NCBI GenBank assembly: GCA_002477755.1
Contig: DLKD01000014.1
Span: 59,342 to 123,341, forward strand
Length of the DNA: 64,000 bases
From: Gordonia sp. UBA7599
GTDB taxonomy: Bacteria > Actinomycetota > Actinomycetes > Mycobacteriales > Mycobacteriaceae
Reading direction: 5' to 3'
Shown: one piece after another, positions 54,121 to 63,963 of the stretch
How positions within the stretch are numbered: the first letter of the stretch is position 1
How the letters are laid out: every line of letters begins with the position of its first letter
Made by a program: the position numbers and the translations under genes
The notes under the pieces: generated by a model
Databases searched by the model: none
Told to the model about the DNA's origin: nothing
What the model saw: only the letters and a program-made list of their open reading frames with translations

Positions 54121-54208
54121 GGTGGCGTGTCCGAGCGGCCGAAGGTGCAGCACTCGAAATGCTGTGTGCGGTAACCCCGTACCGGGGGTTCAAATCCCCC
54201 CGCCACCG
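54121..54208 (+). tRNA. tRNA-Ser (anticodon CGA), integration site of the satellite
   Basis: An 88-nt class II tRNA: acceptor GGTGGCG with CGCCACC, anticodon CGA at 54155-54157 (loop CTCGAAA), T-arm GGTTCAAATCCCC, discriminator G. The last 21 nt belong to attL, and the element keeps the tRNA intact. Confidence 0.97.
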
Positions 54209-54210
54209 CC
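54188..54210 (+). other. attL
   Basis: The 23-bp core starts GTTCAAATCCCCCC and covers the T-loop and 3' acceptor strand of tRNA-Ser(CGA). It is identical to 63941-63963 and the identity stops sharply on both sides. Confidence 0.93.
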
Positions 54211-54247
54211 GAGAAGTGCCCCCTATCTGTGCAGGTAGGGGGCACTT

Positions 54248-55423
54248 TCATGTTCGGGAGGTGCCCGTCTGGGCATCCGGTGGGCACATTTTGGGCACAG
54301 TTGCCAGCGACCGCGCCTGATCCAGGGCGATTCCGATGGCATCTAGGTCATCGTCGAACAGGTCCGAATACACGTCGAGAGTCATGGCCGCCGACGCGTG
54401 CCCGAGCATCCTTTGCAGTGCCTTCACGTTCACCCCGGCCGAGATCGCCAGCGACGCCGCGGTGTGTCGGAGGTCGTGCAACGTCACCGTTGGCACGCCG
54501 GACCGGATGACGGCGCGGTCGAACCATCCTCGTTCGCTCTTGGGCCGCAGGAGATAGCCGCCGTTGTCCCCGGCGAACACCAGCGCCCCCGGTGGGCGGC
54601 CGTCGATGAGCGCGCGCAGCTCGAAGACGAGGAACTCCGGTATCGCGGACACGCGCGCCTCACCTGACTTCGGTGTGCCGACGTGGTGGACCTGCTCGAC
54701 CTGCACCGCGTTCTCGGCGACCTCGACGCGCTTGCGTACGAGGTCCAGGTGCTCGACGCGCAGCGCGATCGCTTCACCCCACCGAAGACCGGTGTATGCG
54801 AGGAACCGGATGAGCGTCGGATACTTCGCGGCGGCCGCGAGCGCCTCGACCTGGGAATGGTTGAGGTAGACGCGTCGCTTGGGTTGCTTGCGTGGCAGGT
54901 TCTCCGGTGTCCGAGCAGGGTTGGACGACAACCGGCGCGCCTTCACCGCAGCGTCCAGGAGGCCCGCGAGGACACCGTAGGCACGTAGGACGACGGTGGC
55001 GCCGGCGGCCTTCTTGGTCACCACGCGGTTGCCGTCCTGGTCGACGTCGACGACTTCGCGCCGCATCTCTGCTATCCATGCCTCGACCGCGCCGACGTCG
55101 ATATCGGTCAGTCGCTTGCGCCCCCAATACGGCTTCACGTGCACGTGCCACGCCGTCGCGATCGACTTGTACGACGACGGTTTCAAGTCGATCTGTTTGC
55201 GGTCGAGCCACTCGTCTGCGAGCTGAGAGACCCTGATACGACCGAGCGTCGGCGACACGTAGGACCCGGAGAGCTTCTGAACCTCGACGGTCGCCGCGTA
55301 CGCCTCGGCGTCGCGCTTCGTGGCAAACCCGCGCTTCTTGGTTTGCCGGTGGTCCGGCTTGCGGTACCGGACCATGTAGCGGGTTTCGCCGGTCTTGGTC
55401 GTGTACTTCTCAATCGTCGCCAT
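54248..55423 (-). CDS. int: tyrosine site-specific integrase
   Basis: 391 aa from the ATG at 55423. N-terminal arm-binding domain (TRYMVRYRKPDHRQTKKRGFATKRDAEAYA), SAM-like core-binding domain (~60-165), then the catalytic domain with Arg214 (TGLRWGEA), His316 and Arg319 (LHDLRHTAA), His342 (LGHAS) and Tyr352 (LDVYSDLF). It recombines the attP core with the tRNA-Ser 3' end. The start overlaps the end of the repressor gene by 14 nt, so both are made from one leftward transcript. Confidence 0.95.
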   Translation of the reverse strand: MATIEKYTTKTGETRYMVRYRKPDHRQTKKRGFATKRDAEAYAATVEVQKLSGSYVSPTLGRIRVSQLADEWLDRKQIDLKPSSYKSIATAWHVHVKPYWGRKRLTDIDVGAVEAWIAEMRREVVDVDQDGNRVVTKKAAGATVVLRAYGVLAGLLDAAVKARRLSSNPARTPENLPRKQPKRRVYLNHSQVEALAAAAKYPTLIRFLAYTGLRWGEAIALRVEHLDLVRKRVEVAENAVQVEQVHHVGTPKSGEARVSAIPEFLVFELRALIDGRPPGALVFAGDNGGYLLRPKSERGWFDRAVIRSGVPTVTLHDLRHTAASLAISAGVNVKALQRMLGHASAAMTLDVYSDLFDDDLDAIGIALDQARSLATVPKMCPPDAQTGTSRT

Positions 55424-55961
55424 CGCCACCACCGCCGTGCCGGTTCTTCGCCTGGTCCTCACGAATCCGCGTGTTGACCTCCACGAGTTCGCCGATGAAA
55501 CCCGCCAGCCCCGCTTGAGCCTTCGACTGGGTTTCCGGGTCATCACCGAGGGACGCGAACAACTTCGCCATCAACGCCGTCGGTGTCTGCTGTGGGTCGA
55601 CCCACCACTCATTGAGCGGGTCACCGGGCGGTGGATCAAGTCGCAGGTACGCCCATATGCGCGCAGCGGCCGTCTCGCCGAAGACGCTCGGCACCCTGTC
55701 GTCCCCGCTGTGCGCTTCGGGCATCAGCAGCAGATCCGGCGTCACGTCCAGAGCGACCGCAATCGCAAACAGGTCGTCGACGTCGACGCGGCGCGCGGTG
55801 TTCTCAATCTGGCTGATCGCCGAGGCGGACATCGTCCGCCCGTTCGTTGTCAGCTCCTCGGCTAGCGCTCGCATCGAGTACCCCCTGCGCTTTCGGTACC
55901 GGGTGACGTTCGCCGCGACGGTGCGTCCGACGTCGCCGATGTCGATGGGTCTAGTTGCCAT
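55410..55961 (-). CDS. HTH (Xre/Cro-type) repressor of the satellite
   Basis: 183 aa from the ATG at 55961. N-terminal lambda-repressor-like HTH: VTRYRKRRGYSMRALAEEL ... SASAISQIENTARRVDVDDLFAIAVALDV. The C-terminal part (WAYLRLDPPPGDPLNEWWVDPQQTPTALMAKLFASLGDD) has no RecA-cleavage (S24 peptidase) domain, so induction would need a helper anti-repressor rather than the SOS response, as in many satellites. It is divergent from the excisionase-like gene, with operators between. Confidence 0.88.
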   Translation of the reverse strand: MATRPIDIGDVGRTVAANVTRYRKRRGYSMRALAEELTTNGRTMSASAISQIENTARRVDVDDLFAIAVALDVTPDLLLMPEAHSGDDRVPSVFGETAAARIWAYLRLDPPPGDPLNEWWVDPQQTPTALMAKLFASLGDDPETQSKAQAGLAGFIGELVEVNTRIREDQAKNRHGGGGDGDD

Positions 55962-56003
55962 GATCGGAACAATATCGCGAATCTTGCGCGATCTCCACGG
56001 CCT

Positions 56004-56062
56004 GTGATAAACCGTTATCACCGAAACAGATGTTTCGGAAAACAGAACACCGAAAGAGATGT
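56004..56062. promoter_or_regulatory. operator cluster between the satellite repressor and the rightward operon
   Basis: Two perfect inverted repeats lie side by side: GTGATAA-ACCG-TTATCAC (56004-56021) and CCGAAACA-GA-TGTTTCGG (56021-56038). A 15-nt direct repeat, CACCGAAACAGATGT (56019) and CACCGAAAGAGATGT (56048), overlaps the second. The sites lie over the divergent promoters and are likely bound by the repressor and the excisionase-like protein. Confidence 0.7.
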
Positions 56063-56068
56063 AGAGAG

Positions 56069-56299
56069 ATGCCAAGAGTTGAAGACGCGAAGCGGGCGGC
56101 TCAAGCGCCGCTGCTGCCCGCGATGGGAACGGCCGACGAGGTTGCCAAAGTGGTCCGCGTGACGACGGCCGCGCTGGCACAGGACCGGTACCTCGGTCGC
56201 GGCATCCCTTACGTGAAGCATGGCAAGCGCGTGCTCTACCGGTGGGACGACGTGCGCGCCTACCTCGACGCGAACCGCATCGACCCGGGAGCCGCGTAG
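56069..56299 (+). CDS. excisionase-like MerR/AlpA-type DNA-binding protein
   Basis: 76 aa from the ATG at 56069. The core MGTADEVAKVVRVTTAALAQDRYLGRGIPYVKHGKRVLYRWDDVRAYLDANRI is the winged helix of the Xis/AlpA 'helix-turn-helix 17' family, ending in the typical 'YRWDDVRAYLD'. First gene of the rightward operon, as expected for a directionality factor that is expressed on induction. Confidence 0.85.
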   Translation: MPRVEDAKRAAQAPLLPAMGTADEVAKVVRVTTAALAQDRYLGRGIPYVKHGKRVLYRWDDVRAYLDANRIDPGAA

Positions 56300-56301
56300 T
56301 C

Positions 56302-56469
56302 ATGCGCGGACGCGACCAGTTCGAACACCAGGACCTCGGCCTCGGTTATCCGCCGGCCGACGAGACCGAAGACCTACGCGCACCCGCGCAAGGGAATGCC
56401 CCCGGTGCTCATCCGACCAAGAACGACACCGAGGGCGACCACACCACCAACCACCAAAAGGAGCAGTAG
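56302..56469 (+). CDS. small satellite protein, unknown
   Basis: 55 aa, ATG at 56302, two bases after the excisionase stop. Hydrophilic and probably disordered (GLGYPPADETEDLRAPAQGNAPGAHPTKNDTEGDHTTNHQKEQ). No function can be named. Confidence 0.5.
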   Translation: MRGRDQFEHQDLGLGYPPADETEDLRAPAQGNAPGAHPTKNDTEGDHTTNHQKEQ

Positions 56470-56661
56470 ATGCAACCCCAGCATATCGTCCGTACCCCGC
56501 TCGGCAATCCTGTCGAGTCAGTCCTCGGCTACCTCAACAGCAGGCACCCCGCCGCCCGTCAGAACGGCCGGTTCGCCGAGGTCCTCGTCGAGCTGCCCGA
56601 CGGCACGTTCACCTTCGAAGTCCTGCCCGTATCGGCACTGTCGATTGAGGTGACCCGATGA
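56470..56661 (+). CDS. small satellite protein, unknown
   Basis: 63 aa, ATG directly after the previous stop, AAAGGAGCA upstream. Sequence QHIVRTPLGNPVESVLGYLNSRHPAARQNGRFAEVLVELPDGTFTFEVLPVSALSIEV looks like a small alpha-beta fold. Its stop overlaps the next start by 4 nt. Confidence 0.6.
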   Translation: MQPQHIVRTPLGNPVESVLGYLNSRHPAARQNGRFAEVLVELPDGTFTFEVLPVSALSIEVTR

Positions 56662-57191
56662 GCCACCAGTCGCGCCTGTCCTGCGAGCATTGTGGCGACG
56701 AGGCCACCGTCGTCGACGACGACGGAGACTTCTTCATGGAGCAGCTCGACGAGTGGAACGAGCAGCACGCCCAGTGCGCCGAGCCCGAGTCTGAGGACAC
56801 CTTCGACCTTCACGGTTGGTGCGCCTACTGGTGTGCTCTCGCCCTCGACGGGACCGTTCCCCACAACGGCGCGACTGTCGCCGAGCACGGCAACTACTGC
56901 GCCGGACCGAACTACTTCGTCGACGGCCAGACCGCCGACGGCACTCCGGGTTGGTTCAACGTCTCACCGGTTCAGCGTTACCTGCACGGCACCGTCACGC
57001 GCGCCGAGTCGGCCCTACGGGAATCCCAACGCCACGCCGTGGGCCTGTCCTGGACCGACCCCGTCGACCCCGACCTCATCCTCTCCGCAGCCACAGCACG
57101 CGAACTCGGAGTGTTCCTGATCCGATGCGCCGACATCGCACTCGGCCTCGACCGCCCCGCTCGGCGGATCAACCGGCCAGGCGGTGCGTAG
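56658..57191 (+). CDS. satellite protein with N-terminal zinc-finger-like motif
   Basis: 177 aa. CEHCGDEATVVDDDGDFFMEQLDEWNEQHAQC has the Cys/His spacing of a zinc finger. The middle contains HGWCAYWCAL and ADGTPGWFNVSPVQRYL, and the C-terminal half DPDLILSAATARELGVFLIRCADIALGLDR is the type of segment seen in phage early proteins of mycobacteria and gordonia. No known role. Confidence 0.7.
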   Translation: MSHQSRLSCEHCGDEATVVDDDGDFFMEQLDEWNEQHAQCAEPESEDTFDLHGWCAYWCALALDGTVPHNGATVAEHGNYCAGPNYFVDGQTADGTPGWFNVSPVQRYLHGTVTRAESALRESQRHAVGLSWTDPVDPDLILSAATARELGVFLIRCADIALGLDRPARRINRPGGA

Positions 57192-57382
57192 TGGACGAGA
57201 GGACACAACACGTCGCCACTCTTCTACAGACAGCGCGACACAAGATCGGCCGGGCTCTGCGAGACCTCGACGAGTACGGCGCCGCCCTGGACTTGCTGCT
57301 ACTCGCCCAGGCCGCCGAGCACCTGGCCGAGGCAGTCGACGAGGCTGACCACCGACACGAGATCCGCCGAGGTCCCGAATGA
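57191..57382 (+). CDS. small helical satellite protein
   Basis: 63 aa, GTG start overlapping the previous stop by one base. Entirely helical (ERTQHVATLLQTARHKIGRALRDLDEYGAALDLLLLAQAAEHLAEAVDEADHR), likely a dimeric coiled coil. Role unknown. Confidence 0.6.
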   Translation: MDERTQHVATLLQTARHKIGRALRDLDEYGAALDLLLLAQAAEHLAEAVDEADHRHEIRRGPE

Positions 57383-57588
57383 CGGCGCGGGAATGCGGTG
57401 TGTGCGGGCGGCCGATGCTGTGCGAACAGCCCCAAAGGCATCTGGTCTGTTCCCCGGTGTGCCCGTCGTGCTGGGTACCGATCCTCGTCGGCGACCAGTG
57501 CGGCCGTTGCCCGACGTCGGTACCGCGTCTCGGCGTGCCCCGACCCGGCCCCAAGCCCAGCCGCAGGACGGGAGGTGCCCGCAGGTGA
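57379..57588 (+). CDS. small zinc-ribbon satellite protein
   Basis: 69 aa; ATG overlaps the previous stop by 4 nt. Eight Cys in CxxC pairs (CGVCGRPMLCEQPQRHLVCSPVCPSCWVPI, DQCGRCP) indicate two zinc-ribbon modules. Pro/Arg-rich tail (PRPGPKPSRRTGG). A DNA- or RNA-binding role is likely from the fold type but not proven. Confidence 0.65.
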   Translation: MTARECGVCGRPMLCEQPQRHLVCSPVCPSCWVPILVGDQCGRCPTSVPRLGVPRPGPKPSRRTGGARR

Positions 57589-57908
57589 GTCAACCGGCCT
57601 ACGCCACCGCCCTCGACGGTCTCCTCGGCACCCTGGAACGCCTGGAACGTCACGGCACCCCGCCCGTCCTCGGCACCCCGACATGGCGCGAACTGCCCGA
57701 CGGTCATCCGCTGCGCGCCGCCGCGATCCTCAGAGCCGCTTTGCTGTGGTGCTTCGAGCACGACCTTGCCGACGACCACACCGAGCGCATGAAGACGGCC
57801 GCGCTCGACGTCGTCGACGGTACCGACTGGGCGGCCGCAGCCAACAGCATCCGCCGGCGTGACGAAGCGATCAAGAGTGGCGCTCGCATCGAAAGGAGGT
57901 CCGCGTGA
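57585..57908 (+). CDS. DUF2742 family protein
   Basis: 107 aa, GTG start in a 4-nt GTGA overlap. The segment PVLGTPTWRELPDGHPLRAAAILRAALLWCFEHDLA ... GTDWAAAANSI matches DUF2742, a family known almost only from small actinobacterial prophages and phiRv1-like elements, directly upstream of the replication ATPase. Function unknown. Confidence 0.72.
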   Translation: MSQPAYATALDGLLGTLERLERHGTPPVLGTPTWRELPDGHPLRAAAILRAALLWCFEHDLADDHTERMKTAALDVVDGTDWAAAANSIRRRDEAIKSGARIERRSA

Positions 57909-59104
57909 GCGAACCCGACCACCAGATCACCCCGGCCGATGTCGCCGCGAACACCAAACCCAAACCACCCCGGCAACGCCAACGCACCCGCGCAGGCAAA
58001 TCGAATACGCCGAGTCTGGCAGCGGTGGCCGAGCCGGTGCCGAGGCCCGGCCCGGAGCTGATGCGCGACCTCAAGGCCACCATTGCCCGGTACTGCGTCC
58101 TGCCGACCGAGTCCGCGCTCATCGCCGTGACCCTGTATGCGGCCTACACCCACCTGTCAGACAGCTTCGACTACGCGCCGCGCATGGTGGTGCGATCGGC
58201 GATGAAACGCTCCGGTAAGTCCCGGCTCCTCGAAGTCCTCGCCGAGCTGGTCCACCAGCCATTGCAAACGATCAACGCGACGGTGCCCTACATCTTCCGC
58301 AGCCTGTCCGACCAGGACCCGCCCACGCTGATCTTCGACGAGGCCGACACCGTGTTCGGCACCAAGGCCAAGGCCGAGGCGAACGAGGACTTGCGCGGCC
58401 TGCTCAACGCCGGATTCCGCCGCGGGCAGACCGTGGGCCGCACCGTCGGCCCGATGCACACCCCGCAACAGTTCCCGACGTTCGCCCCGGCGGTCCTGGC
58501 CGGTATCGGCCGCATGCCCGACACCATTGAGGACCGCGCCGTGGTCATCGTGATGAAGCGCCGCAAGCCCACCGAGACCGTTGAACAGTTCCGGTTCGGC
58601 CGCGACGTGCCGATCCTGCACGAGCTGCGCGCCGAGCTCGCCCGGTGGGCCGAGACCATCACCCCGGGCATACCCGAGGACCTACCCGTCTACGACCGCG
58701 AGGCAGACACCTGGGAGCCGCTGATCGCGGTCGCCGACGCCGCCGGCGGCCACTGGCCGCAGCTTGCGCGCATGGCGTGCAAGGTGATGTGTGGTGCGGC
58801 TGGCGACGACGACGCCGACCAGCTCCCCACGATGCTGCTGGCCGACATCAAGGAAGTGTTCGACGAACGCATGCACGGGACGACGTTCCTCGCGTCCAAC
58901 GTGCTGTGCGACGAGCTGCGCAAGATCGACGACGCCCCGTGGTCGTCGATGGAACTGAACCCGACCAAGCTCGGAATGAAGCTCGGAGACCACCGCATCC
59001 GATCGCGCCGTCGGCCCGAGGGGGACCGCAAGCGCGGCTACTTCCGCGAGGACTTCATCGACGTGTGGGAGCGCCATCTACCCGCGCGAGGCGACGATGC
59101 CTAG
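57905..59104 (+). CDS. DUF3631 P-loop ATPase, satellite replication protein
   Basis: 399 aa, GTG start, 4-nt overlap with the DUF2742 gene. Walker A around Lys105 (SAMKRSGKSRLLEVL), Walker B LIFDEAD (142-148), sensor-like RMPDTIEDRAVVIVMKRR. The C-terminal DUF3631 region has an expected helical/winged end (IRSRRRPEGDRKRGYFREDFIDVWERHLP). Such proteins are primase/helicase-like replication factors of mini-prophages and plasmids. The iteron-like block starts right after its stop codon, as replication initiators and their origins often lie together. Confidence 0.82.
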   Translation: MSEPDHQITPADVAANTKPKPPRQRQRTRAGKSNTPSLAAVAEPVPRPGPELMRDLKATIARYCVLPTESALIAVTLYAAYTHLSDSFDYAPRMVVRSAMKRSGKSRLLEVLAELVHQPLQTINATVPYIFRSLSDQDPPTLIFDEADTVFGTKAKAEANEDLRGLLNAGFRRGQTVGRTVGPMHTPQQFPTFAPAVLAGIGRMPDTIEDRAVVIVMKRRKPTETVEQFRFGRDVPILHELRAELARWAETITPGIPEDLPVYDREADTWEPLIAVADAAGGHWPQLARMACKVMCGAAGDDDADQLPTMLLADIKEVFDERMHGTTFLASNVLCDELRKIDDAPWSSMELNPTKLGMKLGDHRIRSRRRPEGDRKRGYFREDFIDVWERHLPARGDDA

Positions 59105-59105
59105 C

Positions 59106-59296
59106 CGTAAGGGTGTCCAAGGGTGTCCAGGGTGTCCCGTTCGCAGGTCAGAGCACACGTCCACCCTGAAAAGCGAGGGCGTCCCAAAGGTGTCCCGTCC
59201 ACCCCTGGGACACCCTGGGACACCCTTACCGAATCGGCCAAAAACATGCCCTGACCAGGCAACGGGACACCCTGGACACCCTTGGACACCCTTACG
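59106..59296. repeat. iteron-like block with perfect 36-bp inverted repeat, candidate replication origin
   Basis: 59106-59141 and 59261-59296 are exact inverted copies. Each arm holds three GGTGTCC units, and about four more in either orientation lie in the 119-nt middle (for example GGGACACC at 59210-59225), where a second smaller hairpin can form. The same motif occurs roughly ten times in 190 nt. Frames across it are low-complexity (GVQGV-type) and probably not translated. It lies between the DUF3631 gene and the next operon segment; it could also act as a terminator. Confidence 0.65.
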
Positions 59297-59315
59297 GACA
59301 GAAACGGTAGCGAGA

Positions 59316-59486
59316 ATGACCGAACCGACCCTTGAGACGCGGCGTCTGCGCCACGGTTGCACCGCTGTCTACCTTCCACGAGATCCCCGCAGAGTGTCTG
59401 TCGAGCGTCTCGGCGCCACCCACCTGTTCCGCGTCCTGCGCGGCGCCCTGCACCTCGTCGACAGCGGCACCGAGGCCGCGTCGTGA
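59316..59486 (+). CDS. small satellite protein, unknown
   Basis: 56 aa from the ATG at 59316, chosen because the longer frame runs into the repeat block. Sequence RRLRHGCTAVYLPRDPRRVSVERLGATHLFRVLRGALHLVDSG. The stop overlaps the WhiB start by 4 nt (GTGA). Confidence 0.6.
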   Translation: MTEPTLETRRLRHGCTAVYLPRDPRRVSVERLGATHLFRVLRGALHLVDSGTEAAS

Positions 59487-59797
59487 CCGCCACCCAACCG
59501 CGCCCCGAACCCGACGTCGTCGAGCTCCTCGCCCGCATCCTGCGCGACGGTGCGGATCTCGCTGGCGCCGAATGCATCGGCAACCCAGATCCGTTCGATC
59601 CACCCGGCCCCGTCGAACCCCTCGACGACGTCGAATACCGGCACCGCGCCGCGGCTGCGATCTGTGCGCGTTGCCCAGTCCTGGACCGCTGCACCGACTG
59701 GGCACAGTCGCAACCGGCCGACGGCATGGTCCGCGCCGGCCACCTACCCATCACACCCCGCCCCCCAGGACGCCCCCGAAAGGACACCGCCGCATGA
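59483..59797 (+). CDS. phage-type WhiB-like iron-sulfur regulator
   Basis: 104 aa, GTG start. Four Cys in WhiB spacing: Cys31 (AECIGNPDPF), Cys61, Cys64 and Cys70 (ICARCPVLDRC), which bind a [4Fe-4S] cluster. The usual GVWGG turn is replaced by GMVRAGH. The short basic tail (PRPPGRPRKD) resembles the DNA-binding end of host Wbl proteins. Wbl proteins act with the sigma-A subunit of RNA polymerase; a phage-encoded one, WhiB of TM4, blocks host WhiB2 and superinfection. A similar role here is an inference. Confidence 0.85.
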   Translation: MTATQPRPEPDVVELLARILRDGADLAGAECIGNPDPFDPPGPVEPLDDVEYRHRAAAAICARCPVLDRCTDWAQSQPADGMVRAGHLPITPRPPGRPRKDTAA

Positions 59798-60267
59798 ACA
59801 ACCCGACGTTCGACGACGACCACGAGTTCAACGACTACGAAACCAACTGGCTCAATTGGGCCGCGCAAACGATGCTCGAACGCGACTGGCATGGCACCGC
59901 CCGCGACGCCCGGTTCCTGTCGATGCTGGCCGAACGCTACCGCCTCGAAGACGAGGCTGACCCGGAGCGGTCCGCCGCAAACTTGGCCAAGACGCGCCGC
60001 CGAATCCGCATCGAACGCGCCGTCGTCGGCTGCCTGATCCACGGCCGCGCCGGATACCAAATCGGATTCACCGACGCATTCGTCGGACTCCTACCTGTCG
60101 TCGACAACGTCACGGTAAGCGAATTGTCCGGCCCGCTGTTCTGGGCATTGAGCCAACCCTCAGACCGGCTACGCGACTACCTGACCATCACCTACGCGCT
60201 CGCCGAGTCCGACCAGGAGCAGACAGACCGCATCCGAGACCGTGACCGTCGTGAGGATGAGCAGTGA
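59794..60267 (+). CDS. satellite protein of unknown function
   Basis: 157 aa; ATG overlaps the WhiB stop by 4 nt. Acidic start (NNPTFDDDHEFNDYETNWLNWAAQTMLERDW), then basic helices (NLAKTRRRIRIERAVVGCLIHGRAGYQIGFTDAFVGLLPVVDNV). No family recognised. Its position between the regulator and the head genes leaves a role in replication or head assembly open. Confidence 0.65.
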   Translation: MNNPTFDDDHEFNDYETNWLNWAAQTMLERDWHGTARDARFLSMLAERYRLEDEADPERSAANLAKTRRRIRIERAVVGCLIHGRAGYQIGFTDAFVGLLPVVDNVTVSELSGPLFWALSQPSDRLRDYLTITYALAESDQEQTDRIRDRDRREDEQ

Positions 60268-60665
60268 AAACCGCAGCGGTCAACGGAGTGCTCCTCGACG
60301 AGGCCGACACACGTCTAGTCGTCGACGTCCTCGGCTACCTCGGCCGGGTCGCCACCGAGAACGGCCGCCGCCCGACACCGAAGGTTGAGGCCCTGCGCCG
60401 ACGCCTGCAATCCGCGTACGCGTCTGTTTCGGCCCGCACTGTTTCTGACGGCGCGAGCCTCAGCGGCCCGACGCGTCCCCGACTGTTGCCTGAAGGGTAT
60501 GAACTCGTCGACACGGCCCAGGCCGCACGGCTCCTCGGCACCACCGCGGACACGGTCCGGTATCACGCTCGCCGCGGATCTCTACCGGCTCAGCGTGCCG
60601 GTGGGCGGTGGCTACTTGACGCGGCAGCCGTCGCAGCTATCGCCGAACAACGCGCCCGCCGATAG
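60264..60665 (+). CDS. DNA-binding protein with C-terminal excisionase-type HTH, upstream of the head genes
   Basis: 133 aa, GTG start. The C-terminal ~55 residues (ELVDTAQAARLLGTTADTVRYHARRGSLPAQRAGGRWLLDAAAVAAIAEQ) are a MerR/excisionase-like winged helix. The N-terminal part is helical (LVVDVLGYLGRVATENGRRPTPKVEALRRRLQ). Mini-prophages carry such a protein just before the protease. Its place, where small terminase genes usually lie, makes a DNA-recognition role in packaging possible, but this is only positional. Confidence 0.7.
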   Translation: MKTAAVNGVLLDEADTRLVVDVLGYLGRVATENGRRPTPKVEALRRRLQSAYASVSARTVSDGASLSGPTRPRLLPEGYELVDTAQAARLLGTTADTVRYHARRGSLPAQRAGGRWLLDAAAVAAIAEQRARR

Positions 60666-61263
60666 CTGGTACCGCTTCGCCGCCACCACCACCACCACCG
60701 GCGCCGAGGTGTTCATCTACGACGCCATCAGCGGCCGCACCAGCGTCGCAAGCTTCATCGCCGAACTGGCCGCCCTCGACGGCGCCCCCGTCACCGTCCG
60801 AATCAACTCCGGTGGTGGCGACGTATACAGCGCCATCGCCATCGCCAACGCAATCCGCCGCCACCCTGGCCGCACCACCGTCGTCGTCGACGGCCTCGCC
60901 GCCAGCGCCGCCAGCTTCATCGCCGTCTGTGCAGATCAAACCCTCATCGCACCCAACGCCGAGCTCATGATCCACGACGCCGCGGTCCTGGACACCAGCG
61001 GCAACCCCGCCGAGCTGCGCGACCTCGCCGACGACCTCGACCGCATCAGCGACAACATCGCCAGCATGTACGCCGCGAAGGCCGGCGGCAGCGTCGAATC
61101 GTGGCGCAAGCTCATGCGCACCGAAACGTGGTACACCGCCGAACAGGCCGTCACAGCCGGACTGGCCGACCGAATCCTCACCGAGGACCGCCCCGCCGCG
61201 ATCCGCGGCAACAACCTGCGCATCGTCGCCGCCGCGCGCCGCGCACGCACCCACCGAAAGTAG
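60601..61263 (+). CDS. ClpP-like prohead protease
   Basis: 220 aa from the GTG at 60601 (60595 is an alternative); it overlaps the upstream gene by 65 nt in another frame. ClpP/SppA fold: RINSGGGDVYSAIAIANAIRRH (69-), nucleophile Ser102 in DGLAASAAS, His125 in LMIHDAA, and Asp190 in AVTAGLADRI. Phage ClpP-like enzymes mature the head by cutting scaffold and capsid. Directly followed by cement and capsid genes. Confidence 0.87.
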   Translation: MGGGYLTRQPSQLSPNNAPADSWYRFAATTTTTGAEVFIYDAISGRTSVASFIAELAALDGAPVTVRINSGGGDVYSAIAIANAIRRHPGRTTVVVDGLAASAASFIAVCADQTLIAPNAELMIHDAAVLDTSGNPAELRDLADDLDRISDNIASMYAAKAGGSVESWRKLMRTETWYTAEQAVTAGLADRILTEDRPAAIRGNNLRIVAAARRARTHRK

Positions 61264-61273
61264 GTATCCCGTC

Positions 61274-61633
61274 ATGTCCGTTATTCCACAGGCCCGCGTC
61301 TACGCCCCCGGCGCCGACGTCACATGCACCGCAACCGCCGCGATCACCGCCCGCCGCTTCGTCGGCGTCTCCGGTAACCGCTCCGCCCGCGGGAACATCG
61401 CCGTTGCCACCGCCACCGCCGCCGCGCGCGCGTTCGGAGTCGCCCGCAACGACGCCGCCACAGGTGAACTCGTCGGCATCGTCCGCGTCACCGCCGGAGG
61501 CACCATCGCCGCCGGTGCCGACGTCGAAGTCGGCGCTGACGGCAAAGCCGTGACCAAGGCCAGCGGCATCCCCGTCGGCTACGCCGTCACCGGCGCCACC
61601 AACAACGCCGTCGTCGAGCTCGCCCTCTTCTAA
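61274..61633 (+). CDS. capsid cement/decoration protein (DUF2190-like)
   Basis: 119 aa, ATG at 61274. Ala/Gly/Val-rich all-beta sequence: YAPGADVTCTATAAITARRFVGVSGNRSARGNIAVATATAAARAFGVARNDAATGELVGIVR ... GGTIAAGADVEVGADGKAVTKASGIPVGYAV, the pattern of DUF2190 capsid-stabilising proteins that sit on the head surface. Its position between protease and capsid genes is the usual one. Confidence 0.78.
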   Translation: MSVIPQARVYAPGADVTCTATAAITARRFVGVSGNRSARGNIAVATATAAARAFGVARNDAATGELVGIVRVTAGGTIAAGADVEVGADGKAVTKASGIPVGYAVTGATNNAVVELALF

Positions 61634-61652
61634 GCCCGAAAGGAACCCCACC

Positions 61653-62534
61653 ATGACCAGCTCACTCGTTCCCAAGCTCGACGGCCGCAACCTGACCGTC
61701 GACGTCGCCCTCAAACAGCCCACGATCATCCGCGACCGTATCGCCCGACTCGCCGACGATCAGATCCTGTTGCCTCACCTGTTCCACGGCCTCGGCAAGC
61801 CCGTCGAAGGCGGAGGCCTGTTGTACACCGTCACCAAGAATGAAGACCTGTACACCAGCGACGTTGAGACCCGAGCCCCCGGCGACGAATACAAGGTCGT
61901 CGAAGGCACCGACCCCGAAGTCCGCAAAGCCGATTTGGCCGATTGGGGCGGCAAATTCCAGGTCTTCGACGAGGCCCGCCGCCGCAACGATGTCGACGCC
62001 GTCGACCAGCAGACCACCCAACTCGCCAACACGATCACCCGCCGCCTGGACAAAGCCGTTGTCGACGCCATCAACGCCGCAGTCACCGGCGACAACATCG
62101 TCCCCGGCAACGACTGGACCGCCCTACAATTCGCCGACGGCGCCGAAGACGTCACCCCCACCAGCGAACGGCCCACCGCCGACTTTTCCGCCGCCCAACT
62201 CGCCGCCGACCTCCAACAGCTCGGCGTCCGCCACGACCTACTCCTCGTCGGCGCCGAAGCAGCCCACCACCTACGCGTCGCCTACGCCGAGAAACTCGCC
62301 GGGATGCTCGACTCCGCCGGACTCAAACTCGTCGTCAACCCGCAAATCCCCACCGGGCAAGCATGGGTCGCCAAGGCCGGAGAGGTCGGCGTCGTCGGTT
62401 TCGAACAACCCCTGACCGTCATCACCTGGCGCGACGAAGCCACCCGCTCCACATGGGTGCAGTGCTACGTCGTCCCGGCCGTGGCCGTCAACCGACCCCA
62501 CGCCATGAAGAAACTCACCGGCCTGGCCGGCTAA
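61653..62534 (+). CDS. major capsid protein (HK97 fold)
   Basis: 293 aa, ATG at 61653 with GAAAGGA upstream. Sequence LTVDVALKQPTIIRDRIARLADDQILLPHLF ... APGDEYKVVEGTDPEVRKADLADWGGKFQVFDEARRRNDVDAVDQQTTQLANTITRRLDKAVVDAIN gives the N-arm and spine helix; TAADLQQLGVRHDLLLVGAEAAHHLRVAY and C-terminal TVITWRDEATRSTWVQCYVVPAVAVNRPHAMKKLTG give the A-domain. This resembles capsid proteins of small gordonia and mycobacterial phages. Product would form the satellite head; its size relative to the helper cannot be read from sequence. Confidence 0.85.
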   Translation: MTSSLVPKLDGRNLTVDVALKQPTIIRDRIARLADDQILLPHLFHGLGKPVEGGGLLYTVTKNEDLYTSDVETRAPGDEYKVVEGTDPEVRKADLADWGGKFQVFDEARRRNDVDAVDQQTTQLANTITRRLDKAVVDAINAAVTGDNIVPGNDWTALQFADGAEDVTPTSERPTADFSAAQLAADLQQLGVRHDLLLVGAEAAHHLRVAYAEKLAGMLDSAGLKLVVNPQIPTGQAWVAKAGEVGVVGFEQPLTVITWRDEATRSTWVQCYVVPAVAVNRPHAMKKLTGLAG

Positions 62535-62553
62535 CCCGAAAGGACACACCGAC

Positions 62554-63036
62554 ATGGCACTCACACTCGAGTTCGACGACACCCAACAAGGCGCCCTGTT
62601 CGACCTGCTGGGCATCCCCACCGGCACCGACGTCACCGTCGACGCCCTCCTCGAAGTCCTCGCCGACGCCCTCGACCACGACGACCAGGACGAACCGCAG
62701 CCGTCGAACGTCGCCGCCATCGCCAACCGCCTCGGAATGGACGTCATCGACTCCGACAGCCTCGCAGCACTACGCCGCGACGCCGACGAAGGCCGCCGAC
62801 TCGCCGCCGAAGCCGCCCGCACCAAAGTCGAGACCCTCGTCGACAACGCCATCCGCCGCGGCAAGATCACCCCCGCCCGCCGTAAACACTGGGTCACTCT
62901 CATCACCAACGACGCCGCCCTCGGCGACACCCTCAACGCCATCCCCGACGAAACCGCCATCCCCCTCACCGAAATTGGCCACGGCATCGACGACGACGGC
63001 GACGACCTCACCCAACCCGCACCCTGGTTCCGATAG
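62554..63036 (+). CDS. scaffold-like protein (Mu I protein C-terminus type)
   Basis: 160 aa, ATG at 62554. The acidic start (DALLEVLADALDHDDQDEPQ) is followed by a helical region and RRGKITPARRKHWVTLITNDAALGDTLNAIPDE, which resembles the C-terminal scaffold part of Mu-like I/Z proteins ('GKITPAQR...' repeat). This placement after the capsid gene is unusual (scaffolds usually lie before). It ends the head operon. The scaffold assignment is inferred. Confidence 0.6.
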   Translation: MALTLEFDDTQQGALFDLLGIPTGTDVTVDALLEVLADALDHDDQDEPQPSNVAAIANRLGMDVIDSDSLAALRRDADEGRRLAAEAARTKVETLVDNAIRRGKITPARRKHWVTLITNDAALGDTLNAIPDETAIPLTEIGHGIDDDGDDLTQPAPWFR

Positions 63037-63337
63037 AAACCTCGGCGTCAAACACACCCAGCCGCGCAGGATGTCTGGCACAGCCAGGCGGCACGGGAAC
63101 GCATGGCGGCATCACCACGGAGGCCACAACATTGAGAGGTCTCCCAGTGCCGACCAGCGCCGAACCGCAGAGCCCGCGACCCGCTCCAGGTCGCGGGCTC
63201 TCGCAACGGCACCCCGAAAATATTCGGGCACCGGCCCCACCTGACTGCGCCGGTAGCCAGGAAATTTTTTTCGGGAGCGGCTGTGGTGGGCGGGATTTGT
63301 TCGGGTTGACCCTGGGAATGCCCTGTTGCGGTGCTCA
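63037..63337. other. non-coding stretch after the head operon
   Basis: No convincing gene is present. A strong hairpin lies at 63170-63200. The rest includes an AT-rich stretch (AGGAAATTTTTTTCGGG near 63260) unusual for the region. In satellites such a segment may carry the packaging (pac/cos) signal used by the helper, but no motif identifies it here. Confidence 0.5.
63170..63200 (+). terminator. hairpin terminator of the head operon
   Basis: Perfect 11-bp stem GAGCCCGCGAC (63170-63180) with GTCGCGGGCTC (63190-63200), loop of 9 nt, located 134 nt after the last head gene. No U-tract, as usual in actinobacteria. Confidence 0.65.
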
Positions 63338-63589
63338 TCACCGCCGCCGCGCATCGTGTTCGACGACCTGCTCGGCATCACCAGCAATCCGCTGCCCGTC
63401 GGGCATTTCGAGCGCATCGATGGACGACGGCAAATCGTCTGAGTTCAGACGATTTAGGTTCCGGCCGATCGACATCAGGTAGCGCGCCCGCGACTCACTG
63501 ATCCCGACCTCGGCCAGCATGGGCAGCCACTCGCCGTGCGCGACATCGGTCTTCGCGGTTGCGGGTACGCGGTATCGTGGGCAACACAT
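63338..63589 (-). pseudogene. fragment of a DUF3102-like phage protein
   Basis: The frame reads AKTDVAHGEWLPMLAEVGISESRARYLMSIGRNLNRLN, like the 'AK..L.HGEW..WL......S..TA..YM....N' core of DUF3102 proteins from phages and mobile elements. The normal N-terminal ~30 residues are missing, and no ribosome site precedes the possible ATG at 63589. A 24-bp palindrome lies inside the frame. It is probably a remnant left at the attR end. Confidence 0.45.
63432..63455. promoter_or_regulatory. perfect 24-bp palindrome
   Basis: AAATCGTCTGA-GT-TCAGACGATTT, 11-bp perfect arms. It lies inside the DUF3102-like remnant near attR. Possible roles are an integrase/Xis arm site, a transcription terminator or a helper-phage packaging mark. 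Confidence 0.5.
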
Positions 63590-63665
63590 GGCGTGGCAGC
63601 GGTAGGGGAGTGACCCCGATCCGCAGTAAGACCAATCATCCGATCCGATTTTCAGGAGATCCGTC

Positions 63666-63860
63666 ATGACTGTTTCGATTCCGTCCATCCGTCGGTGCGC
63701 TGCGAAGTGTGGTCTTCGTCTGCACAAGTCGAGTCGCTGGGACCTCGGCCCGTTCTATCTGGTCGATGCGCAGACGGCCGGTGTTGTTGCGAGTGGCCTC
63801 GACGAGGACCAGGCTGCCGAGGCCGTGGGCACATATTGGGCACACTTGGCCCGAATTTGA
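63666..63860 (+). CDS. small satellite/prophage protein
   Basis: 64 aa, ATG at 63666 with AGGAG 9 nt upstream. Sequence TVSIPSIRRCAAKCGLRLHKSSRWDLGPFYLVDAQTAGVVASGLDEDQAAEAVGTYW resembles small proteins that recur in actinobacterial phages ('RLRLHKSR..D...GPYWLVD..T..VV.G'). Function unknown; last gene before attR. Confidence 0.6.
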   Translation: MTVSIPSIRRCAAKCGLRLHKSSRWDLGPFYLVDAQTAGVVASGLDEDQAAEAVGTYWAHLARI

Positions 63861-63940
63861 GGTGATCTAGGGTGATGCGTGGTCACCTATCTGCGCTGGT
63901 CAACCCACATTTCCGGCTCTGACCAGCGGGGCGGAATAGA

Positions 63941-63963
63941 GTTCAAATCCCCCCGCCACCGCC
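63941..63963 (+). other. attR
   Basis: Exact copy of the 23 bp at 54188-54210, the 3' end of tRNA-Ser(CGA) without the rest of the tRNA. It is preceded by AT-richer element DNA and followed by chromosomal sequence to the window end. Confidence 0.93.

Follow-up and report, generated by a model that had tools for sequence, protein, structure and literature searches.

SaPIbov5, a Staphylococcus aureus pathogenicity island (SaPI), carries a cohesive-end (cos) site of its helper's type and has neither terminase nor portal. In the excerpted text of PMC8569155 it is a satellite of a cos phage with a homologue of the capsid protein, Ccm, which forms pentamers together with helper hexamers in T=4 heads and is the only protein required. 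The genes of capsid-forming phage-inducible chromosomal islands (cf-PICIs) include those for both terminase subunits, portal, connectors and HNH, and both terminase subunits and a portal are also encoded by Mulch and Flayer, satellites of Streptomyces phages that have capsid genes (excerpts of PMC10690885). In mycobacteria, candidate PICIs including phiRv1 and phiRv2 are defined by an integrase and a capsid gene, with a terminase noted in some, and have tRNA sites and replication genes (excerpts of PMC10654092); candidate islands with capsid genes are already in print, and the kind is thus known. Here we describe a 9.75-kb element (54188..63963) integrated in the genome of Gordonia sp. UBA7599 (assembly G000; 3.80 Mb, 173 contigs, 93.9% complete), in a 64,000-nt stretch of contig DLKD01000014.1 that we call the window. 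It is very probably an integrated cos-type satellite that supplies the head proteins itself but uses the terminase, portal and tail of phages in one terminase group, that of Schnabeltier, Ruthy and Rem711.

The element has the features of a phage satellite or PICI in the broad sense: it is integrated, with an integrase, a repressor, its own replication gene and attachment (att) sites, and by family scans it lacks genes that a virion of its own would require. Its likeness to SaPIbov5 lies in an encoded capsid-protein homologue and in what its sequence suggests is a cos site of the helper's type; it differs in phylum, in a head set that is up to complete (protease, cement and scaffold) and in having a protein that we call HTH17, with a helix-turn-helix (HTH). 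With cf-PICIs it shares an encoded capsid and head protease, but family scans found no terminase large subunit (TerL), portal or connector in it. Mulch and Flayer, likewise actinobacterial satellites with capsid genes, differ from it in their terminase subunits and portal. For the mycobacterial candidates, a terminase-less lineage, HTH17 as a marker and a shared cos are not reported in the excerpts of PMC10654092. A preliminary description of this DNA, made from the letters alone, had likened the element to phiRv1 and phiRv2; the likeness, judged from their published descriptions only, stands for the broad plan, but four typed relatives with a DUF2742 protein outside the present lineage use a PF05065 capsid and lack this cos. 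Some candidate mycobacterial PICIs presumably belong to the lineage. A search of the open-access literature, at the level of listings and abstract openings, gave no account of a terminase-less, portal-less HTH17 capsid lineage or of its cos, and the cos-like site after the head operon is new here.

Head genes and a capsid lineage without terminase

Twenty proteins of the element were scanned against Pfam, and ten of these also against PHROGs and NCBIfam. The integrase, repressor, excisionase-like gene, replication ATPase, WhiB gene and head module named in the preliminary description were all present. As it had reported, no TerL, portal, tail or lysis family was matched, and the largest likely product without a family has 177 aa, which is too small for TerL or portal. 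The DUF3631 protein was considered as a hidden TerL and rejected, as Pfam yields DUF3631 alone and the best PHROGs match is only 0.34.

The head genes follow one another on the plus strand. A ClpP-type head protease open reading frame (ORF) at 60385..61263 (NF045542 1.5e-48, phrog_2976 3.2e-72), with its domain at ~60650-61206 and an uncertain start codon, is followed by a cement/decoration protein at 61274..61633 (PF09956 1.6e-7, phrog_673 2.5e-22), an HK97-type major capsid protein at 61653..62534 (NF042926 3e-100, phrog_1650 1.9e-54) and a scaffold protein at 62554..63036 (phrog_2976 columns 251-376, 1.1e-20). The first part of phrog_2976 is matched by the protease and its last, C-terminal part by the scaffold, indicating that what is one gene in Schnabeltier-type phages is divided into two in the element, with cement and capsid between them. 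Schnabeltier has the order terS-terL-portal-protease-cement-capsid-connectors, and in the place of terS-terL-portal the element has HTH17 (60264..60665, plus strand; PF12728 4.4e-9), which consists of an N-terminal part and a MerR/excisionase-type HTH. Homology of HTH17 to phage TerS was rejected, the profile comparison giving a probability of 0.2%; the phrog_57 match of HTH17 (2.8e-4) is confined to the HTH.

We searched for the capsid protein at E <= 1e-10, taking satellites and phages alike. Matches were found at 48 places in 36 of 301 genomes of the host family and in 4 of 394 genomes of the class, two of which are Gordonia, including the host; plasmids gave none. The capsid was also matched in 129 phage records, all at less than 60% identity and at no more than 41% among the matches listed (30 of the 129 records). 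Loci were taken from 40 of the 48 family places (8 partial, weak or second copies were excluded), 28 named sequences and the best 80 of 177 from IMG/VR, and the 146 loci were reduced to 86 at 95% capsid identity. HTH17 occurs without TerL, portal or MuF in 45 of these; conversely, 29 lack HTH17 but have at least one of those three genes, and 12 have none of the four, all of the last with less than 5 kb upstream. When only the 67 non-redundant loci with at least 5 kb upstream are counted, 41 have HTH17 without TerL or portal, 26 have TerL or portal without HTH17, and none is mixed.

The two classes are also separated in the capsid tree (85 rows, 10 of them unlabelled, after removal of rows shorter than 230 aa, namely 3 satellites and 2 others, and addition of 4 phage references). 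All 42 satellites stand together on one side of one branch (support 97/82), adjoining as sister a group with 11 Schnabeltier/Rem711-type phage rows, and the labels need 1 change compared to 24.7 in shuffles. The siphoviruses of the Schnabeltier/Rem711/Ruthy group, which have this sister capsid clade (Schnabeltier, Rem711) and the same cos type, differ in being ~45-52 kb with TerL, portal and tail; in Schnabeltier-type phages protease and scaffold form one gene, and HTH17 was absent from the loci searched.

Both ends could be set in 26 of the 45 satellite loci, giving sizes of 8781-11612 bp with a median of 10051. Some of these calls are weaker: L079 and L034 have repeats without a tRNA, L045 and L098 have 15-17-bp repeats, for L048 we preferred a 24-bp tRNA repeat to a longer one, and L060 was sized from tandem copies. 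Most satellites are integrated at tRNA genes, of many kinds. Near a tRNA-Thr, two adjacent copies (L060 and L181; G067:C2 ~95950-114514) have 1 difference in ~9270 positions, a sign of recent integration. In 12 pairs the capsid ratio of nonsynonymous to synonymous substitution (dN/dS, Nei-Gojobori) was ~0.09-0.42 while the integrases were often unrelated, suggesting that the head module is maintained by selection and moves between backbones. Head content varies among the 45 loci, some of which are cut short: 23, including the window, have protease, cement and scaffold, 8 have a capsid without these, and 14 lie in between.

Among the relatives, 33 distinct unassigned ORFs of large or middle size were scanned without a match to any TerL, portal or head family. 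The majority encode replication helicases, primases or initiators; ORFs of L076, L045, L086 and L088 gave weak or HTH matches only, and one of L101 belongs to a family of unknown function. Because our own portal model performs poorly (the L225 portal, which PHROGs detected, escaped it), the absence of a portal in the relatives is read from family scans of their large ORFs. A hidden TerL or portal fold, against which the preliminary description had warned, was thus found neither in the element nor in these 33 ORFs. As a separate observation, an IMG/VR contig (L105) has a tape-measure match ~3.2 kb past its satellite capsid and may lie beside or inside a prophage. As judged from sequence, the element, with its gene content, its att sites and no TerL or portal found, is part of one terminase-less capsid lineage under purifying selection.

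The cos-like site and its phage counterparts

Short k-mers common to the relatives 3' of the head genes led to a conserved non-coding block, the last part of which resembles the joined ends of Schnabeltier. In the window the block common to relatives (63044..63205, plus strand) contains GGCGTCAAACACACC, ATGCATGG-like and CCGACCAGCGCCGAAC motifs and a GC hairpin, and it is followed at 63211..63278 (plus strand) by the cos-like site homologous to the ends of Schnabeltier-group phages. Alignment with deposited phage ends predicts the cohesive end TGCGCCGGTA at 63246..63255 (plus strand) if its length is 10 nt, which is an assumption, as Mbo4 is annotated with a 14-nt end. In L047 the conserved block still follows the capsid although the cos is at a different place, so the block may have a function of its own; as an IMG/VR pattern it occurs in 2 contigs, one a satellite and the other resembling coding DNA by eye.

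A model built from 14 satellites was run against the joined-end Schnabeltier genome on both strands. Its best match spans the junction (E=0.0011; the next has 0.65), and in ten shuffled Schnabeltier genomes the best E was 3. In the opposite direction, a phage-only hidden Markov model (HMM), for which the deposited ends of eight phages were joined (Schnabeltier, Opie, Rem711, Bowser, Hedwig, Mbo4, Ruthy and Finkle), was searched over the 45 satellites and 4 truncated terminase-less loci. It found the window site at 21.5 bits (E=4.7e-6 for 0.02 Mb), 680 bp past the capsid ORF, the next best score being 1.0. Matches above the best of 49 shuffled controls (7.5 bits) were obtained in 25 of the 45 satellites and 3 of the 4 truncated loci, and 27 of these 28 lie on the head-gene strand (the exception is L138). 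Because the best false match scored 10.0 bits, we adopted the count above that score as the stricter one; it comprises 20 of the 45 satellites and 2 of the 4 truncated loci, all on the head-gene strand. The model peaked at 4.8 bits in 132.9 kb of other DNA (20 pieces). For 8 of 9 Schnabeltier-clade prophage loci its best match lies just upstream of the terminase small-subunit gene terS, at 6.5-22.9 bits, and for 20 phage loci of other capsid clades the best matches are at scattered places. A combined model, which is partly circular, placed 31 of 49 loci (28 of 45 satellites) above 195 shuffles, all on the plus strand; relative to the capsid gene end, 24 of the sites lie downstream and 7 upstream.

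A model of eleven satellite sites and no phage was searched over 218.5 kb, where it matched the window and the prophage loci L106, L151 and L142 (E=1.9e-13, 5.7e-11 and 1.8e-9) as well as the right end of Schnabeltier (E=2.6e-5); the sole further match was an overlapping minus-strand one at that end (0.088). Over 59 Gordonia genomes, scanned with strict filters and 85 scored candidates per genome, it gave six matches at E <= 0.001. Three are in satellites (the window, an already known G. aichiensis element at G211:C70 and a new one in G788), and three are just upstream of terS-terL-portal in prophages (G814, G282 and G162). The new locus (L274, G788:C76:1-12500), detected via its cos site, is, after the window element, a second Gordonia satellite with this build and with tRNA-Ser(CGA) as its site, and has genes for integrase, XRE, HTH, DUF2742, WhiB, HTH17, protease, cement, capsid and scaffold.

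Close pairs of satellite and phage sites were found in mycobacteria by blastn against 50,697 phage records, with identities of 80-92% overall. The 101-nt site of L240 matched 14 records, all M. abscessus prophages, 11 of them over the full length at 90-92% with a terminase small subunit among the features under the match. The site of L077 (Mycobacteroides chelonae) matched 13 records, again all M. abscessus prophages, and 11 of these list a terminase small subunit under the match; the best match covers 74% of the query at 92% and lies where no feature is annotated. In addition, TGCCGAGGTA is common to the Gordonia satellites L076, L093 and L274 and the right end of Gordonia phage Ruthy, and ACTCCGCAGCGGT is common to L048 and the end of Rem711. 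A blastn match of the tail of the element to phage Jeeves (E=3) was rejected as a different type of end, and the ends of GMA4, MalagasyRose and Jeeves do not have this cos architecture. Among known RNA families, none besides tRNA reached its curated score in this tail.

By these comparisons, the cos-like site is homologous to that of the Schnabeltier/Ruthy/Rem711-group phages, and the element DNA is probably packaged by the motor of phages that share its cutting site. A borrowed packaging motor had been a guess in the preliminary description; a site of the type of one phage terminase group now provides positive evidence for it.

Ends, replication genes and related backbones

The element is integrated at a tRNA-Ser(CGA) gene (54121..54210, plus strand; ARAGORN). 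The exact 23-bp att repeats noted previously were borne out, with attL (54188..54210, plus strand) forming the 3' end of the tRNA and attR at 63941..63963 (plus strand); the contig ends 37 bp past attR. Pattern search gave integrase arm-type sites on the left (GTGGGCACATTTTGGGCACA, 54280..54299, plus strand) and right (GTGGGCACATATTGGGCACA, 63825..63844, plus strand), and the pattern GTGGGCACA-gap-GGGCACA has only these two occurrences in the window, at 54280 and 63825, each beside one att copy. For two of three fetched Gordonia genomes, the DNA directly 3' of the same tRNA resembles the right flank in the window (A[GA]ACTCCCCCG), which is what an empty site predicts.

Two genes on the minus strand come first, a tyrosine integrase (54248..55423; PF00589 4.8e-20) and an XRE-family repressor (55410..55961; PF01381 8.6e-9). 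They are followed on the plus strand by an HTH protein that is an excisionase-like candidate (56030..56299; PF12728 0.0011, phrog_66 0.001), the 177-aa protein (56658..57191), without a confident family in Pfam, PHROGs or NCBIfam, a DUF2742 protein (57393..57908; PF10888 1.6e-9) and a DUF3631 replication-type ATPase (57905..59104; PF12307 3.8e-48). Directly 3' of the last gene is an iteron array (59105..59297) of ten GGGTGTCC-type units (<=1 mismatch) in two inverted clusters, the 51-nt arms of which are 92% complementary; from its sequence it is a likely candidate for the replication origin. A WhiB-like protein (59480..59797, plus strand; PF02467 3.1e-6) and a 157-aa protein kept in a few relatives (59794..60267, plus strand) precede HTH17. 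Between cos and attR, an ORF at 63338-63727 on the minus strand has a weak DUF3102 match (0.028) and is perhaps cargo or a remnant.

DUF2742 is present in 40 of 148 mycobacterial genomes, and 20 such places were fetched. The HTH17-capsid module occurs in three of these (L228, L230 and L240). L230 and L240, absent from the combined cos model, scored 22.0 and 14.7 bits with it, and L228 is truncated past the capsid. In the other 17 places the score stayed at or below 6.2 bits. Three of them have a TerL match, and the one of these that was typed has a portal and a PF05065 capsid; typing gave a PF05065 capsid for a further three, which have no TerL match, and 11 are without capsid typing. At L225 (4828-9489) a DUF2742/integrase backbone carries TerL, portal, scaffold and a PF05065 capsid, indicating that the same backbone accepts different head modules; the L226 and L233 backbones also have TerL. 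In the host genome itself, three phage contigs (G000:C31, C55 and C69; L190, L049 and L191) carry genes for a portal, capsid, TerL or tape measure. A further element, at 12906-19516 of C105 (L192), has an integrase (profile-related, 1e-121), an HTH gene and TerL, and its layout resembles by eye that of the TerL-bearing mycobacterial island L225.

Alternative explanations and proposed cycle

Several observations weigh against a satellite packaged by phages of this terminase group. No helper was found in the host genome by TerL and cos searches: a search made without a positive control gave no Schnabeltier-type TerL match, the four phage-bearing contigs reached no more than 5.2 bits for such a cos (with 20.0 of the 25.3 kb of C105 covered) and contained nothing for the eleven-satellite model, and genome-wide that model found the window site only (6.4e-13; 150 of 1249 candidates scored). 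The 106-nt cos region of the window has no blastn match in the phage records, and its predicted end with arms is in no IMG/VR contig, so that its helper is known only by terminase group. The models also have misses and false matches. The combined model leaves 17 of the 45 satellites below threshold (4 are cut short after the capsid, 6 have an arm and T-run by eye, weak in L101, and 7 have neither), and the scan of 59 genomes failed to recover the sites known from a G. jacobaea satellite (G236) and a prophage (G141). Among the nine Schnabeltier-clade loci, the phage-only model missed L144 and gave L053 6.5 bits, under the shuffle maximum though at the right place, and 2 of the 20 phage loci of other capsid clades score 9.2 and 10.0 bits away from any cos. 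ORFs of three relatives, L078 (619 aa from stop to stop, the largest), L081 and L036, match no family. Finally, the stem and T-run of the cos-like site also resemble an intrinsic terminator.

This last resemblance would suit a shell made for another use, such as an encapsulin-like compartment or a gene-transfer agent, with the cos-like site a mere terminator hairpin, as would the fact that the element encodes no motor or portal. The preliminary description had entertained shells for another use, which given the cos-like site we now regard as very unlikely. A terminator leaves unexplained the conserved upstream AAATATTC element and the loop sequences equal to a phage end, a 101-nt stretch that is 90-92% identical to prophage DNA next to terS, and a genome scan that yielded only satellites and terS-proximal sites; moreover, of the 31 sites, 7 precede the end of the capsid gene instead of lying 3' of the head genes. 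A decayed prophage that lost its TerL, portal, tail and lysis genes would account for a phage-derived capsid and for head genes that are a subset of the phage order. Decay would be expected to leave broken genes, irregular sizes and members scattered among the phages. What we found, where the preliminary description had allowed for a remnant of a larger prophage, is a single terminase-less clade in many genera, with narrow sizes, many tRNA targets, a low dN/dS, HTH17 in every member with enough upstream DNA and its own att and replication set. We rejected this explanation as scarcely tenable.

The two other alternatives concern how the DNA and the capsid are used. Satellite multimers could be packed in ordinary helper heads while the head genes act mainly against the helper, since cos packaging permits several units per head. 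Phage-inducible chromosomal minimalist islands (PICMIs) are reported, in the source excerpts, without capsid remodelling genes. Against this, 23 of 45 loci have full head sets, which would be a costly load if they served no purpose, and we consider this explanation improbable. A plausible if somewhat doubtful variant, which differs from an own-shell satellite only at the capsid step and is in effect a sub-model of it, is that the satellite capsid acts as a redirector that mixes with helper capsid, for example as pentamers, and forces small heads. The precedent is Ccm, a capsid homologue (24% identity) of a cos-type satellite that replaces the helper pentamers (excerpts of PMC8569155). The satellite capsid, at no more than 41% identity to those phage capsids listed, would fit such a role, as would the 8 of 45 loci with a capsid and no detected protease, cement or scaffold and the 11 more without a protease domain, although some loci are cut short; loci short of head genes would need helper partners. 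However, the window and 22 other loci also have protease, cement and scaffold, which are dispensable for a Ccm-type mechanism. Capsid-only members thus favour Ccm-type mixing, and full sets like that of the window favour own shells.

For the cos-type satellite with its own head proteins, we propose the following cycle. The satellite would sit at tRNA-Ser by means of its integrase, held by the XRE repressor, until entry of a helper phage leads to its excision. Replication would proceed from the iterons with the DUF3631 ATPase, and the expressed protease, cement, capsid and scaffold would form a small prohead on the helper portal, or contribute to one. The helper terminase would then recognise and cut the satellite cos and pack one ~9.75-kb unit through the helper portal, and helper connectors and tail would complete the particle. 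By analogy with other systems, unit sizes near 10 kb would fit a small head. Cutting by the helper terminase, entry by its portal and the use of its tails are deduced from established cos packaging and from the missing genes. We also suggest, only tentatively, that the satellite lineage arose once from a Schnabeltier-like phage, keeping cos and head module and losing terminase, portal and tail, and that it spread by swapping integrase and replication parts through Gordonia, Mycobacterium, Mycobacteroides, Rhodococcus, Prescottella, Nocardia, Williamsia, Tsukamurella, Dietzia and Corynebacterium, with HTH17, in the place of terS-terL-portal, steering helper terminase or portal to satellite proheads.

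The lineage extends to mycobacteria, where, in the excerpts of PMC10654092, phage induction of such candidate islands lacked experimental demonstration. Known satellites steal whole heads or make whole heads and a motor; this lineage would stand between them, making head proteins itself while borrowing motor and portal. It raises the question of how a foreign portal and terminase operate on the shell of another element, and the shared cos sites indicate likely helpers by sequence.

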